A DNA stretch of 64,000 nt, from NCBI RefSeq assembly GCF_009917525.1, contig NZ_QZDU01000001.1:372001-436000 (forward strand). Reading direction: 5' to 3'. The position numbers and the translations under genes were made by a program. This document shows, piece after piece, positions 53,771 through 59,785 of this stretch (position 1 is the first letter of the stretch; each line of letters opens with the position of its first letter). Origin of the DNA: Acutalibacter sp. 1XD8-36 (GTDB lineage Bacteria > Bacillota > Clostridia > Oscillospirales > Acutalibacteraceae). The notes under the pieces are model-generated. The model had not been told where the DNA came from. It saw only the letters and a program-made list of their open reading frames with translations, and searched no databases.

Positions 53771-54508
53771 ATGCTGAAAAGTGTGGTGGTGGATACGTTA
53801 AAATTTGCCGTCTGCGATGACGAGCCGGTAATGGCCCGGGAAATCTCGGAGCTTATCTCAGGCTATATGAGGTCGCGTGGGATTACAGCTTTCTCCGTCA
53901 GCAGATTCTCCAGCGGGCGCTCCCTGCTGGAGAGCCCCGACAGCTTTGATGTGGTCTTTTTAGATATACAGATGGAACAGCCCGACGGCATGGACACTGC
54001 AAGGCTCCTGCGCCGCCGGGGAGATGGTGTTTTGCTGATTTTTGTGACGGTTCTCAGGGAGCGGGTATTTGACGCCTTTAAGGTGGAGGCCTACGACTAT
54101 CTGGTAAAGCCTGTAGACTTCAAATCCTTCTCCCAGACCATGGACCGGGCACTTTGCTCTCTGGAGCACAAAGCCTTCAAGTCCATAGTGGTCCAGCGCG
54201 GCGGCAGTTCTGAGGTTGTCCCCCTCTCTGAGATAGTTTACTGCGAGGTGCTGGGCCGCAAAATATATATCCATAAGAGCGACAGCTCGGTTATCGACTA
54301 CTATGATAAAATGGGTGAGCTTGAGCAGCGGGTGGACCGGCGCTTCTTCAAGTGCCACCGCAGCTATCTTGTGAATCTCGCCTATGTCCGAGGACGCCGC
54401 CCGGGACAGATTATTCTGCCGGATGGCGGTACCATCCCCGTATCCCGCCTGAGGGAAGGAGACCTTGCCTCTTCCCTGCTGAGGTATATGAAAGAGGGAG
54501 GGCTTTGA
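53771..54508 (+). CDS. LytTR-type response regulator (second copy)
   Basis: Up to 245 residues. Receiver at about 10-125 ('FAVCDDEPVMAREI', phospho-acceptor Asp in 'VVFLDIQMEQPDG' near 62, Lys in 'YLVKPVD'), LytTR domain at about 140-240 ('FFKCHRSYLVNLAYVRG'). AgrA/VirR-type. Start uncertain: the ATG at 53771 has no ribosome site and one of the GTG codons at 53783-53789 would give the usual N-terminus nearer 'LKFAVCDDEP'. Pairs with the kinase just downstream. Confidence 0.9.
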   Translation: MLKSVVVDTLKFAVCDDEPVMAREISELISGYMRSRGITAFSVSRFSSGRSLLESPDSFDVVFLDIQMEQPDGMDTARLLRRRGDGVLLIFVTVLRERVFDAFKVEAYDYLVKPVDFKSFSQTMDRALCSLEHKAFKSIVVQRGGSSEVVPLSEIVYCEVLGRKIYIHKSDSSVIDYYDKMGELEQRVDRRFFKCHRSYLVNLAYVRGRRPGQIILPDGGTIPVSRLREGDLASSLLRYMKEGGL

Positions 54509-54509
54509 T

Positions 54510-55784
54510 ATGGACTATTTCAGCCTACTCAGCGACATTGCCTGCCTTGCCGGGCAAAGCATTATGCACCTGCTCTTCACTTCAAAACTCTCCGGGAAGA
54601 AACCCATGCTCTGGCTTTTCCCGGTTTACTTCCTTTTAATCTGGACTATCGACCACGTATCCATTATTTTCCTCCCGGAAGGCGGGATACTGCCGGTCGG
54701 CGCCGGAGTGCTGGCTCTAGCCTGTGCCAGCCGGTACGCGCTTAAAAACCGCTGGCATGTTTCCTGGCTTGCAGCGGTGCTGTCCTTCTATATCTCCCAG
54801 CTCTCCTTTGGCGTTATCAACTCAGTGGAGGCGGTGGTATTTCCAAGATTTATCGGGAGCCCATTATTGTACCTGCTCCTAATTGCGGCACTTCTTATAT
54901 TCTTCCTGCTATGTGCCTGCTGCTACCGGGGCGTCATAAAGCTCATGCCCGGTGCTGACAGCCTGCCGCGTCTAGGGCTTCTTCTGTTTCCAAGTCTGTT
55001 TTTCTTCGCTGCGGAGCTCTATATCCTGCGCACATCATACAGCTTGTTCACACCGTCCGTCTCCCCTATGGAAACAGGCAGGCACGCCGTATTACTGTTT
55101 TTACAGGTGATGGGCCTTGCCGCAATGCTCTGCACACTGTACGCCTACCGGCAGCTCTGCCAGGGATTCAGGGACAGCGCGGCGCTTCAGTCCCTGACCC
55201 AGGCGGCCCAGGCCCAGAAGGTGTATATCTCCGAAGCCCGCAGCCGCTATGAGCAGACTATGGCCTTCCGCCATGATGTAAAAAACCATCTTGCAGTGCT
55301 CAGCAGCCTCTTAAACAGCGGAAAAATTGAGGAGAGCAGGGAATACCTTCAGAAGCTCTCGACGGTCTCCGACTCCCTCTCCTTTCCCTGCCGGACCGGG
55401 AATGCCGTCGTGGATATCCTGCTGGGCGAGAAGCTGGGGCTACTTAAAGATGTCCGCACAGAGGTGTCCCTGCTTCTCCCAAACCCCTGCGGTATAGACG
55501 ATTTGGATTTATGCGTCATCTTCGCCAACGCTCTGGACAACGCCATTATCGCCTGCCAGTCATTGGAGGGTGAAAAGCATATTCAGGTCTCCGGTCAGCA
55601 GCAGGGGGATTTTTTCATGCTCACCTTTGAGAACTCCTGCACCGACGGCCCCACGCCGGTTTCCGGGACAGGCCTTGCCAATATACGCGCCGCGGCTGAA
55701 AAATACCACGGCGCGGCCCTTTTTGAAAAGTCCGGCAGAAGCTTTTCCCTCAGTGTCCTGTTGGACATTTCACGACACCGATAG
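54510..55784 (+). CDS. GHKL-type sensor histidine kinase (AgrC-like)
   Basis: 424 residues. Six hydrophobic segments in the first 215 residues, a full AgrC-like sensor; then 'FRHDVKNHLAVLSSLL' (phospho-His near 254), N-box 'FANALDNAIIACQSL' near 340 and G-box 'GTGLANIRAAAEKYHG' near 388. Agr-type kinases sense cyclic peptides, but no AgrB/AgrD genes lie here. GAAAGAGGGAGGG before ATG, one base after the regulator stop. Confidence 0.92.
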   Translation: MDYFSLLSDIACLAGQSIMHLLFTSKLSGKKPMLWLFPVYFLLIWTIDHVSIIFLPEGGILPVGAGVLALACASRYALKNRWHVSWLAAVLSFYISQLSFGVINSVEAVVFPRFIGSPLLYLLLIAALLIFFLLCACCYRGVIKLMPGADSLPRLGLLLFPSLFFFAAELYILRTSYSLFTPSVSPMETGRHAVLLFLQVMGLAAMLCTLYAYRQLCQGFRDSAALQSLTQAAQAQKVYISEARSRYEQTMAFRHDVKNHLAVLSSLLNSGKIEESREYLQKLSTVSDSLSFPCRTGNAVVDILLGEKLGLLKDVRTEVSLLLPNPCGIDDLDLCVIFANALDNAIIACQSLEGEKHIQVSGQQQGDFFMLTFENSCTDGPTPVSGTGLANIRAAAEKYHGAALFEKSGRSFSLSVLLDISRHR

Positions 55785-56832: not shown

Positions 56833-56836
56833 ATGA

Positions 56837-56881
56837 GAAGCAAGCCCCCCGGAGCCTGTATGCTCCGGGGCTTGCTTCTTA
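56837..56881 (+). terminator. Terminator of the hypothetical pair
   Basis: A long stem GAAGCAAGCC...GGCTTGCTTC with an inner CCGGAGC/GCTCCGG pair and small loop, then TTAATTT. Confidence 0.85.
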
Positions 56882-56965
56882 ATTTACCTATTTTAGAAGA
56901 CGGTCGATAGTTTCCCCACTTTGCTGTTCCCAATCTTCCAAAAGCCCCAAAATTACCCTCAACTC

Positions 56966-56994
56966 TTGACAAGCGGCAAAAGCCCATGTATAAT
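56966..56994 (+). promoter_or_regulatory. Consensus sigma-A promoter for cbiM-cbiQ-cbiO
   Basis: TTGACA (56966-56971), 17-base spacer, TATAAT (56989-56994), both boxes exact. Predicted RNA start near 57001, giving a leader of about 170 bases. Confidence 0.9.
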
Positions 56995-57000
56995 ACAATT

Positions 57001-57133
57001 TATATTTAGTGGCATGAAGCCGCTTTTAGGAGCATGAAGCTCCCCAATTACCCCGAGCACGTATTATTTTATCATGCCAAAGAAGGCATACGCTACCGGT
57101 CAGAAGACGCAGACGTATGCCTTTATATTTTTT
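57001..57133 (+). ncRNA. Candidate riboswitch/attenuator leader of the cobalt/nickel transporter operon
   Basis: Two hairpins share the loop ATGAA and the core GCATGAAGC, 20 bases apart: AGTGGC/GCCGCT (57008-57024) and GGAGC/GCTCC (57029-57043). TGGCATGA (57010-57017) is also fully complementary to TCATGCCA (57072-57079). ATGCC (57074-57078) can instead pair with GGCAT (57085-57089), which is the left arm of a terminator: AAGGCATACG (57083-57092) with CGTATGCCTT (57114-57123), then TTTATATTTTTTG. This is the mutual-exclusion geometry of a transcription-attenuating switch. I do not see the B12 box of cobalamin riboswitches or the NiCo motif. Ligand unknown; cobalt, nickel or a corrinoid would fit the genes. 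Confidence 0.6.
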
Positions 57134-57169
57134 GTTATTTATTACTTATTTTTGAAAGGAATGATTTTC

Positions 57170-58231
57170 ATGCATATGGCAGACGCTCTTATATCTCCCG
57201 CTGTAGGCGCGGCGATGTACGCTGCCTCGGCAGCGACAGCGGGCATATCTATCTACAGGCTTAAAAGTGAGGACAGGCTACGCCCGGAGCTCACTTCTAA
57301 ACGCCTGCCCACCATGGCGGTGATGTCCGCTCTGGTCTTCGCGGGACAGATGGTAAACTACACCATCCCCGGCACCGGCTCCTCAGGGCATTTATGCGGC
57401 GGGCTGCTGCTCACTGCCCTGCTGGGCCCATGGGCGGGCTTCCTCTCTATGGCGGCGGTGCTCATTATCCAGTGTCTCTTCTTTGCCGACGGAGGCCTGC
57501 TTGCCCTTGGAGCCAACCTGTGGAATATGGCTTTCTATGGCTGCTTTGCGGGCTATTACCTTATTTATCGGCCCATATTGGGTGCAAAACGGTTAAAAGC
57601 CCCTGTGAAACTTACCCTCGCCTCAGTTTTGGGCTGTGTGCTCTCATTGCAGCTTGGAGCATTATCAGTTGTAATCGAGACCTCACTCTCCGAGGTCACC
57701 GAGCTGCCCTTCGGGGCATTTCTGGCCCTAATGCAGCCCATTCACCTGGCTATCGGCGCAGTTGAGGGGCTCATAACCGCCGCTGTGCTGGTGTTTGTGT
57801 ATAATGCCCGTCCTGAGCTCCTGCCGGACCTGCAGGGCTCCGAGAGCAGTCCAGGGAAATTCTCCCTGCGGAGTACCCTGGCTGTGCTGGCAATAGTGGC
57901 CGCTGTCACCGGCGGAGGGCTCTCTCTGATTGCCAGCGGCAACCCGGACGGCCTTGAGTGGTCTCTTTTCGGCAATAGTGAGGCTGGATATTCCGAGAAT
58001 ATGGGGCTTGATGAGGACGCTTACGGCATAGATAGCCCTGCCTCCAGGACAGCGGGCGTGATACAGGAGAAGACCGCTTTCCTGCCTGACTACGGCTTTG
58101 CCGGCGGTTCCGGGGAGCCGTTGGGCACCAGCGTCTCCGGCATAGCCGGCGCGGCTATGGTGGCGGTTTTGGCGGGGCTTGTCTGTCTCTGCGGTAGCCT
58201 GCTCAGAAGGCGCGGGACCGGCAAAAAGTGA
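57170..58231 (+). CDS. cbiM: ECF cobalt/nickel transporter, CbiM with fused CbiN/PDGLE-like domain
   Basis: 353 residues. CbiM S-component (about 1-215): the start 'MHMADALISPAVG' supplies the N-terminal Met-His metal ligand, which decides the start at 57170 over the longer frame; AAAGGAA lies upstream. 'GTGSSGHLCGGLLLTALLGPWAGFLSM' near 70 is the family core. A C-terminal part (about 240-350) has two helices around 'NPDGLEWSLFG', the PDGLE/CbiN motif, so CbiN is fused. Metal could be Co or Ni. Overlaps cbiQ by four bases. Confidence 0.92.
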   Translation: MHMADALISPAVGAAMYAASAATAGISIYRLKSEDRLRPELTSKRLPTMAVMSALVFAGQMVNYTIPGTGSSGHLCGGLLLTALLGPWAGFLSMAAVLIIQCLFFADGGLLALGANLWNMAFYGCFAGYYLIYRPILGAKRLKAPVKLTLASVLGCVLSLQLGALSVVIETSLSEVTELPFGAFLALMQPIHLAIGAVEGLITAAVLVFVYNARPELLPDLQGSESSPGKFSLRSTLAVLAIVAAVTGGGLSLIASGNPDGLEWSLFGNSEAGYSENMGLDEDAYGIDSPASRTAGVIQEKTAFLPDYGFAGGSGEPLGTSVSGIAGAAMVAVLAGLVCLCGSLLRRRGTGKK

Positions 58232-59043
58232 GCCGCTTTAACCCAGCCGGTGAAGCCGGACAGAGCCTGCGGCTGGTGGACGAGCTGGCGGCGCTGGACT
58301 CTCCCATGCACCGGCTTGCCCCACTGCCCAAGCTCCTTTTGACTGTGCTATATGTGTCCCTGACCCTCTCTTTCCCCAAGTACGCTCTCTCAGGCCTCAG
58401 TGTTATGGCACTGTTTCCTGTTTTCGGCTATCAGCTGGCGGGAATATCCCTTTTGGTATGCTTTCGGCGTCTGCGGTTTATACTGCCGCTGGTCTGCGCT
58501 GTGGGTCTTTTCAACCCATTCTTTGACCGGGAGACACTCTTTTTTCTGGGAAATCTGCCCGTAAGTGGAGGAGTTATCTCCATGCTGACGCTCCTGCTAA
58601 AGGGTGTGTTCGCCTTAACCGCCGCCTTCCTGCTCATTGCCACAACTCCACTTGAAGGCATATGCGGGGCCCTGGGAAAGCTCCGCTGTCCTAAGGTGAT
58701 GGTAAGCCTCCTGCTGCTGACCTTCCGTTATATCACAGTGCTTCTTGACGAGGCCAGCCTTATGACCGAGGCTTACAGCCTGCGGGCTCCGGGGCAGCGG
58801 GGGGTGCACATATCTGCGTGGGGCTCCTTTTTAGGGCAGCTCCTGCTGCGTAGTATGGACCGTGCCGAAAGCCTCTATAGCAGTATGCTCCTGCGCGGAT
58901 TCACCGGTGAGCTTCCGAGGAGTTTTAATTCTGCCGTGTCACCGCTGTCATGGACAGCCGCCGGAATCTGTGCCGCACTGATGGTTCTGTCCCGGATGTA
59001 CGACCTGCCCGCCCTGCTGGGCAAATTACTTATTGGAGGCTGA
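58228..59043 (+). CDS. cbiQ: ECF transporter transmembrane component CbiQ
   Basis: 271 residues with about five to six helices and the two coupling motifs of T-components, visible as 'LRAPGQRG' (near 190) and 'SMLLRGFTGE' (near 220), which contact the ATPase. Start is GTG at 58228 within the cbiM stop (GTGA overlap). Couples the CbiM metal-binding unit to CbiO. Confidence 0.92.
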   Translation: MSRFNPAGEAGQSLRLVDELAALDSPMHRLAPLPKLLLTVLYVSLTLSFPKYALSGLSVMALFPVFGYQLAGISLLVCFRRLRFILPLVCAVGLFNPFFDRETLFFLGNLPVSGGVISMLTLLLKGVFALTAAFLLIATTPLEGICGALGKLRCPKVMVSLLLLTFRYITVLLDEASLMTEAYSLRAPGQRGVHISAWGSFLGQLLLRSMDRAESLYSSMLLRGFTGELPRSFNSAVSPLSWTAAGICAALMVLSRMYDLPALLGKLLIGG

Positions 59044-59047
59044 GCCT

Positions 59048-59785
59048 GTGATAATCTTTAAAAATGTTTCATACTCATATCCAGGCGGCCGGTCCGTGCT
59101 GAACGGTGTCTCACTTCACATCTCCCCGGGCGAGCGGGTGGGGCTTATCGGTGCAAACGGAGCTGGCAAGAGCACGCTTTTAAAAGCTGCGCTGGGGCTT
59201 GTTGACGCAGACGGCTCCATCACCGTAGACGGCACCGGGCTCAGCCGAAATACTCTGCCGTTTGTGCGCAAAGCTCTTGGCTACGTGCTTCAGGACTCGG
59301 ACAACCAAATGTTTATGCCTACTGTCCTTGATGACATGGTCTTTGGGCCCATGAACTATGGCATGAGCCGTACCGAGGCTGAGGCCCTGGCCGACAGCAT
59401 CCTATCCGGCCTTGGCGTTGCCCATCTGAAGCACCGCCAAAATCATAAAATCTCCGGTGGAGAAAAGCGCATGGCTGCCATCGCTACCGTCCTTATGTCC
59501 ACCCCCAAGGCGGTCCTGATGGACGAGCCCTCCTCCTCCCTGGACCCTAAAAACCGCCGCACCCTCATTCACACTGTCAACTCTCTGCCTATTGCAAAGC
59601 TCATCGCCTCCCATGACCTGGATATGATTCTGGATACCTGCGACCGGGTGCTGCTCATAGGCTCCGGGCAGATAGTGGCCGACGGCGCTGCCAGGGATGT
59701 GCTTGGTGATAAAGAGCTGCTAGAAAAAAATGGGCTGGAGCTGCCGCTGGGGATGCAGAGGTGCTGGACCGGCAAAAGGGGATGA
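59048..59785 (+). CDS. cbiO: ECF transporter ATPase CbiO
   Basis: 245 residues. Walker A 'GANGAGKST' near 38-46, Q-loop 'YVLQDSDNQMF' near 80, signature 'ISGGEKRMAA' near 137, Walker B 'AVLMDEPSSSLD' near 156 and H-loop 'IASHDLDM' near 190. One ATPase gene, so a homodimer drives uptake. GTG 59048 follows GGAGG by eight bases; a TTG 15 bases earlier overlaps cbiQ. Confidence 0.95.
   Translation: MIIFKNVSYSYPGGRSVLNGVSLHISPGERVGLIGANGAGKSTLLKAALGLVDADGSITVDGTGLSRNTLPFVRKALGYVLQDSDNQMFMPTVLDDMVFGPMNYGMSRTEAEALADSILSGLGVAHLKHRQNHKISGGEKRMAAIATVLMSTPKAVLMDEPSSSLDPKNRRTLIHTVNSLPIAKLIASHDLDMILDTCDRVLLIGSGQIVADGAARDVLGDKELLEKNGLELPLGMQRCWTGKRG

Follow-up and report, generated by a model that had tools for sequence, protein, structure and literature searches.

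A leader with GAA-loop hairpins before nickel genes of Bacillota: a candidate class of transcription attenuators

Introduction

The guanidine-II (mini-ykkC) riboswitch is built from two small hairpins which carry identical short loops (ACGR) and are separated by a variable linker, and the NiCo (czcD) riboswitch forms a four-way junction in front of efflux genes. The targets of the ANTAR-domain antiterminators EutV, NasR and AmiR are tandem small hairpins with conserved purine-rich loops: these are hexaloops with A at position 1 and G at position 4, the last hairpin shares an arm with the terminator, and effector binding leads to read-through (PMC3369931). For nickel uptake itself, in a nickel/cobalt survey less than half of the NikABCDE-bearing organisms had NikR, from which unknown regulation was inferred (PMC2667541).

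We analysed an RNA leader in front of a cbiM-cbiQ-cbiO operon of Acutalibacter sp. 1XD8-36. Coordinates refer to the window, the whole 64,000-nucleotide stretch of DNA under analysis (contig NZ_QZDU01000001.1, positions 372,001 to 436,000 of the forward strand). An earlier note on this DNA had proposed an RNA switch of unrecognised class, free of cobalamin and NiCo motifs, and we agree: no Rfam family matches the leader at gathering or relaxed thresholds, and we found no description of the element in the open-licence literature. We are fairly confident that it belongs to a widespread, so far uncatalogued class of cis-acting RNAs which attenuate transcription of the nickel regulon in Bacillota.

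Results

The leader and the operon that follows it comprise these features:

56966-56994, + strand: sigma-70 type promoter, TTGACA-17-TATAAT (12/12 match; kept in genomes G017 and G018)
57008-57024, + strand: hairpin P1, AGTGGC-ATGAA-GCCGCT, loop 57014-57018 (fold; covariation in 6/6 pairs, 96% of cells paired)
57029-57043, + strand: hairpin P2, GGAGC-ATGAA-GCTCC, loop 57034-57038 (fold; double changes in 5/6 pairs)
57044-57073, + strand: variable-length linker (beyond the genus neither sequence nor length is conserved)
57074-57089, + strand: hairpin P3, the proposed antiterminator, ATGCC-AAAGAA-GGCAT (fold of the terminator-less leader; covariation in 7/7 pairs, 29 sequences; RNAalifold)
57082-57124, + strand: intrinsic terminator hairpin, left arm common to P3 (-18.9 kcal/mol; double changes in 6/8 pairs of the base helix, 13 sequences)
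57128-57133, + strand: terminator U-tract, TTTTTT (from sequence)
57154-57160, + strand: ribosome-binding site GAAAGGA (from sequence; kept in G017 and G018)
57170-58231, + strand: cbiM/larMN-type substrate-binding subunit with C-terminal PDGLE domain (Pfam CbiM 2.4e-56, PDGLE 2.1e-20)
58228-59043, + strand: cbiQ transmembrane subunit (over the TIGR02454 cut-off)
59033-59785, + strand: cbiO ATPase subunit (ECF ATPase families)

The perfect promoter, the two ATGAA-loop hairpins (P1 and P2, with predicted energies of about -8.0 and about -7.0 kcal/mol) and the U-tailed terminator of the earlier note are all present as described, and the leader fold beats 200 of 200 dinucleotide shuffles (z -2.96). 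The GCATGAAGC pair occurs a single time in the whole genome. A simple terminator scan omitted the hairpin at 57082-57124 because its loop limit of 8 rules out the imperfect stem. The first reading overlooked P3, a third GAA-loop hairpin, with a loop (AAAGAA) similar to the ATGAA loops of the other two and a 3' arm, GGCAT, that is also the 5' arm of the terminator; the loop repetition it reported extends to all three hairpins. Its proposed switch, an 8-bp pairing of 57010-57017 with 57072-57079, is present in the window but is not conserved, having a C-A mismatch in G018 and being missing from more distant leaders. The attenuation logic of exclusive pairings stands, with the local hairpin P3 rather than the long-range pairing as the antiterminator.

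Upstream of the promoter, a near-perfect and very strong inverted repeat (GAAGCAAGCCCC..CGGAGC...GCTCCGGGGCTTGCTTC, 56836-56882) probably terminates the upstream gene and accounts for a minus-strand match to His_leader that stays below threshold. At 53771-55784, a LytTR-type response regulator gene precedes what is probably a sensor kinase gene, with no visible tie to the leader.

Covariance models, seeded with three leaders from one genus, and a hairpin scan of relatives' loci returned about 30 similarly designed leaders from at least nine family-level groups of Bacillota, the leader-bearing genomes being metagenome assemblies in most cases. Two members of the genus, with CbiM 88-93% identical, retain promoter and leader; across these and the window the loops read AYGAA in P1, AKGAA in P2 and AWAGAA in P3, and the stems stay paired. 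Model R1 (3 sequences) matched leaders before larB-larC-larM (L056, L010, L066) and larE (L075), and its family-level search gave no convincing member beyond the genus. Model R2 (7 sequences) found L123, L065, L012 and L116 in the expected places at E 0.0008-0.008 in 77 kb; run class-wide with strict filters, it returned 11 non-self matches, among which L114, L115 and L116 were leader-like when inspected (L114 with only P3 and terminator) and most others looked like chance. Model R3 (11 sequences), run on 398 genomes of the phylum, gave 16 non-self matches: about ten are leaders in which GAA hairpins are overlapped by a terminator, and the rest lie within coding sequence or lack the hairpins. 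Searching the family of one R3 match and the window's genus added more leaders.

The family is not uniform. P2 is missing in several to many distant members, and the P1-P3 spacing runs from about 4 nt (L163) to about 100 nt (L167). The loop letters (A)NGAA are constant across relatives, in loops of mostly 4-5 nt that include ACGAA, AGAA, CGAA and TGAA and are closed by a C-G (or U-G/U-A) pair. L170 (reverse strand) carries two P3/terminator units in succession before a methyltransferase gene, a possible double attenuator.

Covariation in relatives' leaders, put forward in the earlier note as the check on its proposal, is strong, and the hairpins are conserved. In alignments of 13 and 29 leaders (A7 and A8) that were hand-registered to the hairpins with linkers omitted, so that their scores lean towards the proposed structure, the contrast with shuffled sequence is still large: over 13 leaders, P1, P2 and P3 are 89.1% paired with double changes in 17 of 19 pairs (score 0.746 vs 0.230 shuffled), and over 29 leaders P1 and P3 have double changes in 13 of 13 pairs (0.794 vs 0.251). 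The base helix of the terminator is 95.2% paired over 13 sequences, with 6 of 8 pairs doubly changed (0.579 vs 0.316 shuffled). Sliding the registers collapses the score in every case, to 0.2 or less, and RNAalifold predicts the same three hairpins from a model-made alignment of seven leaders. A descriptor that called for a pair of GAA hairpins with a terminator overlapping the second one matched 10 times on both strands of 1.45 Mb of loci, 8 times at these leaders, and once in 0.72 Mb of shuffled sequence; the scan is not fully independent, since the RNA model had served to collect some of the loci. As expected of an attenuator, antiterminator and terminator both covary, use one strand segment and lie upstream of the start codon. 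The conservation, covariation and mutual exclusion of these elements, like the gene association described below, are computed observations.

It is scarcely credible on these results that the leader is an ordinary one, where nothing but the terminator counts and the hairpins are chance or species-specific structure, or one in which a leader peptide begun at a loop ATG attenuates. An ATGAAG start can be read in P1 of the window and single distant leaders have weak covariance-model scores, but the covariation is strong and the descriptor matches (8 of 10, in loci partly chosen with the RNA model) fall at these leaders. The leader peptide is ruled out, as the loops of relatives given above lose the ATG.

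Most leaders precede nickel genes: larB/larE/larC, CbiM-type transporters, NikABCDE or CooC-FecBCD, where CooC, LarB, LarC and LarE were named by eye from sequence and Pfam assigns the CooC-like protein to CbiA. They stand before larE-larB-larC and then Nik-type genes (L123/L152), before methyltransferase-nikBCADE (L116/L151), and also before cbiM, nikB and FecBCD. NikABCDE-type operons follow in L180, L183, L185, L190, L191 and L151, a CooC-like ATPase with FecCD/FecE/FecB in L181 and L182, FmdE-FecCD in L188, NikA-type and larM-type CbiMQO genes in L189, and CbiMQO in L184, there with a NikA of 671.8 bits (curated cut-off 393). NikA-type binding proteins lie behind the leader in five members of the window's genus, with most SBPs behind leaders scoring below the curated NikA cut-offs. 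The earlier note had named cobalt, nickel or a corrinoid as the ligand; the gene context (lar, NikA, CooC) favours nickel and not cobalt or a corrinoid, and from this context we infer nickel as the signal of the leader. A minority (L114, L115, L165, L168, L197) precedes an ECF S component (PF12822), mostly with a kinase-like partner, which is so far unexplained by the nickel reading; the substrate of this component could be nickel-related.

A class I SAM-dependent methyltransferase recurs beside nickel-type ABC transporters (L151, L176/L183, L185, L189, L191), and it is conceivable that it makes a nickelophore.

Among 80 further CbiM relatives (L008-L087), the cbiM gene of 68 is preceded by a CCCC(n)GGGGCTT-type palindrome, which in the examples read sits at the -35 region of cbiM/lar promoters. 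It resembles CsoR/RcnR-type operators and seems to be a DNA-level alternative to the RNA leader. The 12 loci in which it is absent are L008 (whose contig sequence is the same as G018/L004), L026, L067 and nine in which cbiM comes after lar genes; these nine have cbiM within the lar operon, where no operator would be expected immediately in front of it and the relevant feature is a leader at the operon start. In 10 of the 12 loci the operon begins with a GAA-hairpin leader, identified with a model, by scanning or on inspection: L008, L010, L056, L066, L075, L012, L065, L076, L067 and the less regular L026. L013 has P3 and terminator only in the available sequence, and for L081 the operon start is not covered. 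At larB, the window's genome carries the palindrome (L132, about 1420-1445) without an RNA leader, and at the cbiM operon it carries the RNA.

In the mechanism that we propose, polymerase would transcribe two or three small hairpins with (A)NGAA loops, the last of which, P3, shares an arm with the terminator (in several distant members, the P3 5' arm and loop). The shared segment makes P3 and the terminator mutually exclusive. With both P1 and P2 formed, the terminator state is predicted at -37.7 kcal/mol and the P3 state at -28.8, 8.9 in favour of the terminator, so by energy alone the default would be off. An effector on the GAA hairpins would keep P3 closed, with read-through into nickel-uptake or nickel-cofactor genes. 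Since loop binding would stabilise P3 and the genes are those of importers and cofactors, this would suit an effector which is active under nickel shortage; both the polarity of the switch and the identity of its effector are what we infer.

Discussion

We put the chance that the effector is an RNA-binding protein that acts in trans under nickel shortage at a little better than even. The loop letters hold constant across hairpins that differ in number, spacing and loop length, which favours a protein over a bound ligand. A true riboswitch, whose GAA hairpins would pack and bind Ni2+, a nickel complex or a metabolite of nickel need and so set P3 against the terminator, is possible, if rather unlikely. 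It would fit the near-identical loops on two or three small hairpins, which recall guanidine-II, the strict loop letters on free stems, the context of metal transport and cofactor genes, and the 11 of 27 leader-bearing genomes without a detected ANTAR protein. However, a P1-P3 distance of about 4 to about 100 nt and a dispensable P2 leave no compact aptamer core, and a ligand that stabilises P3 would switch uptake on. This is the wrong sign for plain metal feedback, as more nickel would give more uptake, unless the ligand accumulates in nickel shortage.

In one specific form of the protein reading that we favour, the leader would be the target of DUF3842 (PF12953), an uncharacterised small Rossmann-like protein, which would act as a nickel-responsive antiterminator. 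DUF3842 was found in 32 of 32 leader-bearing genomes tested, two near-complete genomes of the genus without it (G010, G022) also lack the element, and in six genomes of different groups it lies at most 2 kb from the element:

G794:C68:1524-1910, DUF3842 near the leader
G184:C27:30032-30418, DUF3842 near the leader
G988:C5:52172-52561, DUF3842 near the leader
G351:C19:78077-78457, DUF3842 near the leader
G868:C34:32784-33164, DUF3842 near the leader
L065:1060-1464, DUF3842 near the leader

We nevertheless regard this version as unlikely. DUF3842 is common, occurring in 6 of 8 control genomes without a detected element, and in the window's genome it lies away from the leader with unrelated genes around it, which makes it a lead and not a finding. 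Its RNA- or metal-binding role is putative and its predicted structure poor (single-sequence AlphaFold model, mean pLDDT 47.9); we found no clear relative among solved structures and no paper on it in the open-licence literature.

The leader is a testable candidate for the missing nickel-uptake regulation in Bacillota, and may explain how uptake is controlled in bacteria without the known nickel repressor. It would join CooC clusters, nickel importers and the lar (nickel-pincer nucleotide) pathway in a single regulon controlled at the RNA level, it is a compact genetic part, and it offers a first lead to a role of DUF3842. On balance, we think it reasonably probable that this is a new class of RNA-level nickel-status sensor in Bacillota, be it a nickel-related riboswitch with repeated GAA-loop hairpins or the target of a nickel-responsive antiterminator family such as DUF3842, which would govern uptake and nickel-pincer cofactor genes where NikR is lacking.

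Among the known RNA classes, cobalamin riboswitches are likewise able to precede cbiM and nik-type operons, but they have a large conserved aptamer, and RF00174 matched none of the leaders tested in searches which did match L006. The NiCo riboswitch is also a nickel/cobalt-linked transcription-termination leader; in contrast to its junction and efflux genes, the leader has independent hairpins and uptake genes, and there is no Rfam match. From guanidine-II it differs in its (A)NGAA loops and in its nickel genes, which stand where the other class has guanidine genes, again with no Rfam match.

The ANTAR targets come closest in logic: tandem small hairpins with conserved purine-rich loops, a last hairpin that overlaps the terminator (here the P3 3' arm is the terminator 5' arm) and, as we propose, read-through on effector binding (PMC3369931). 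Even so, we consider it very unlikely that ANTAR-domain antiterminators target the leader as a nickel-regulon counterpart of the EutV/NasR dual hairpin. P2 of the window (AGC-ATGAA-GCU) is one loop base from the eut site consensus, AGCAANGRRGCUY (PMC3369931), its P3 loop AAAGAA carries A1 and G4, and many leader-bearing genomes, that of the window included, encode a protein with an ANTAR domain. However, no such domain was found in 11 of the 27 leader-bearing genomes, several of these 94-98% complete (G017, G653, G881, G1077, G831, G868, G697), and an ANTAR protein as obligatory partner is thereby ruled out. The A1/G4 hexaloop occurs only in P3 of the window's genus (AAAGAA/ATAGAA). Where the ANTAR targets present A1..G4 hexaloops (PMC3369931), the leader presents (A)NGAA in loops that are mostly tetra- and pentaloops, on up to three hairpins with widely varying spacing.
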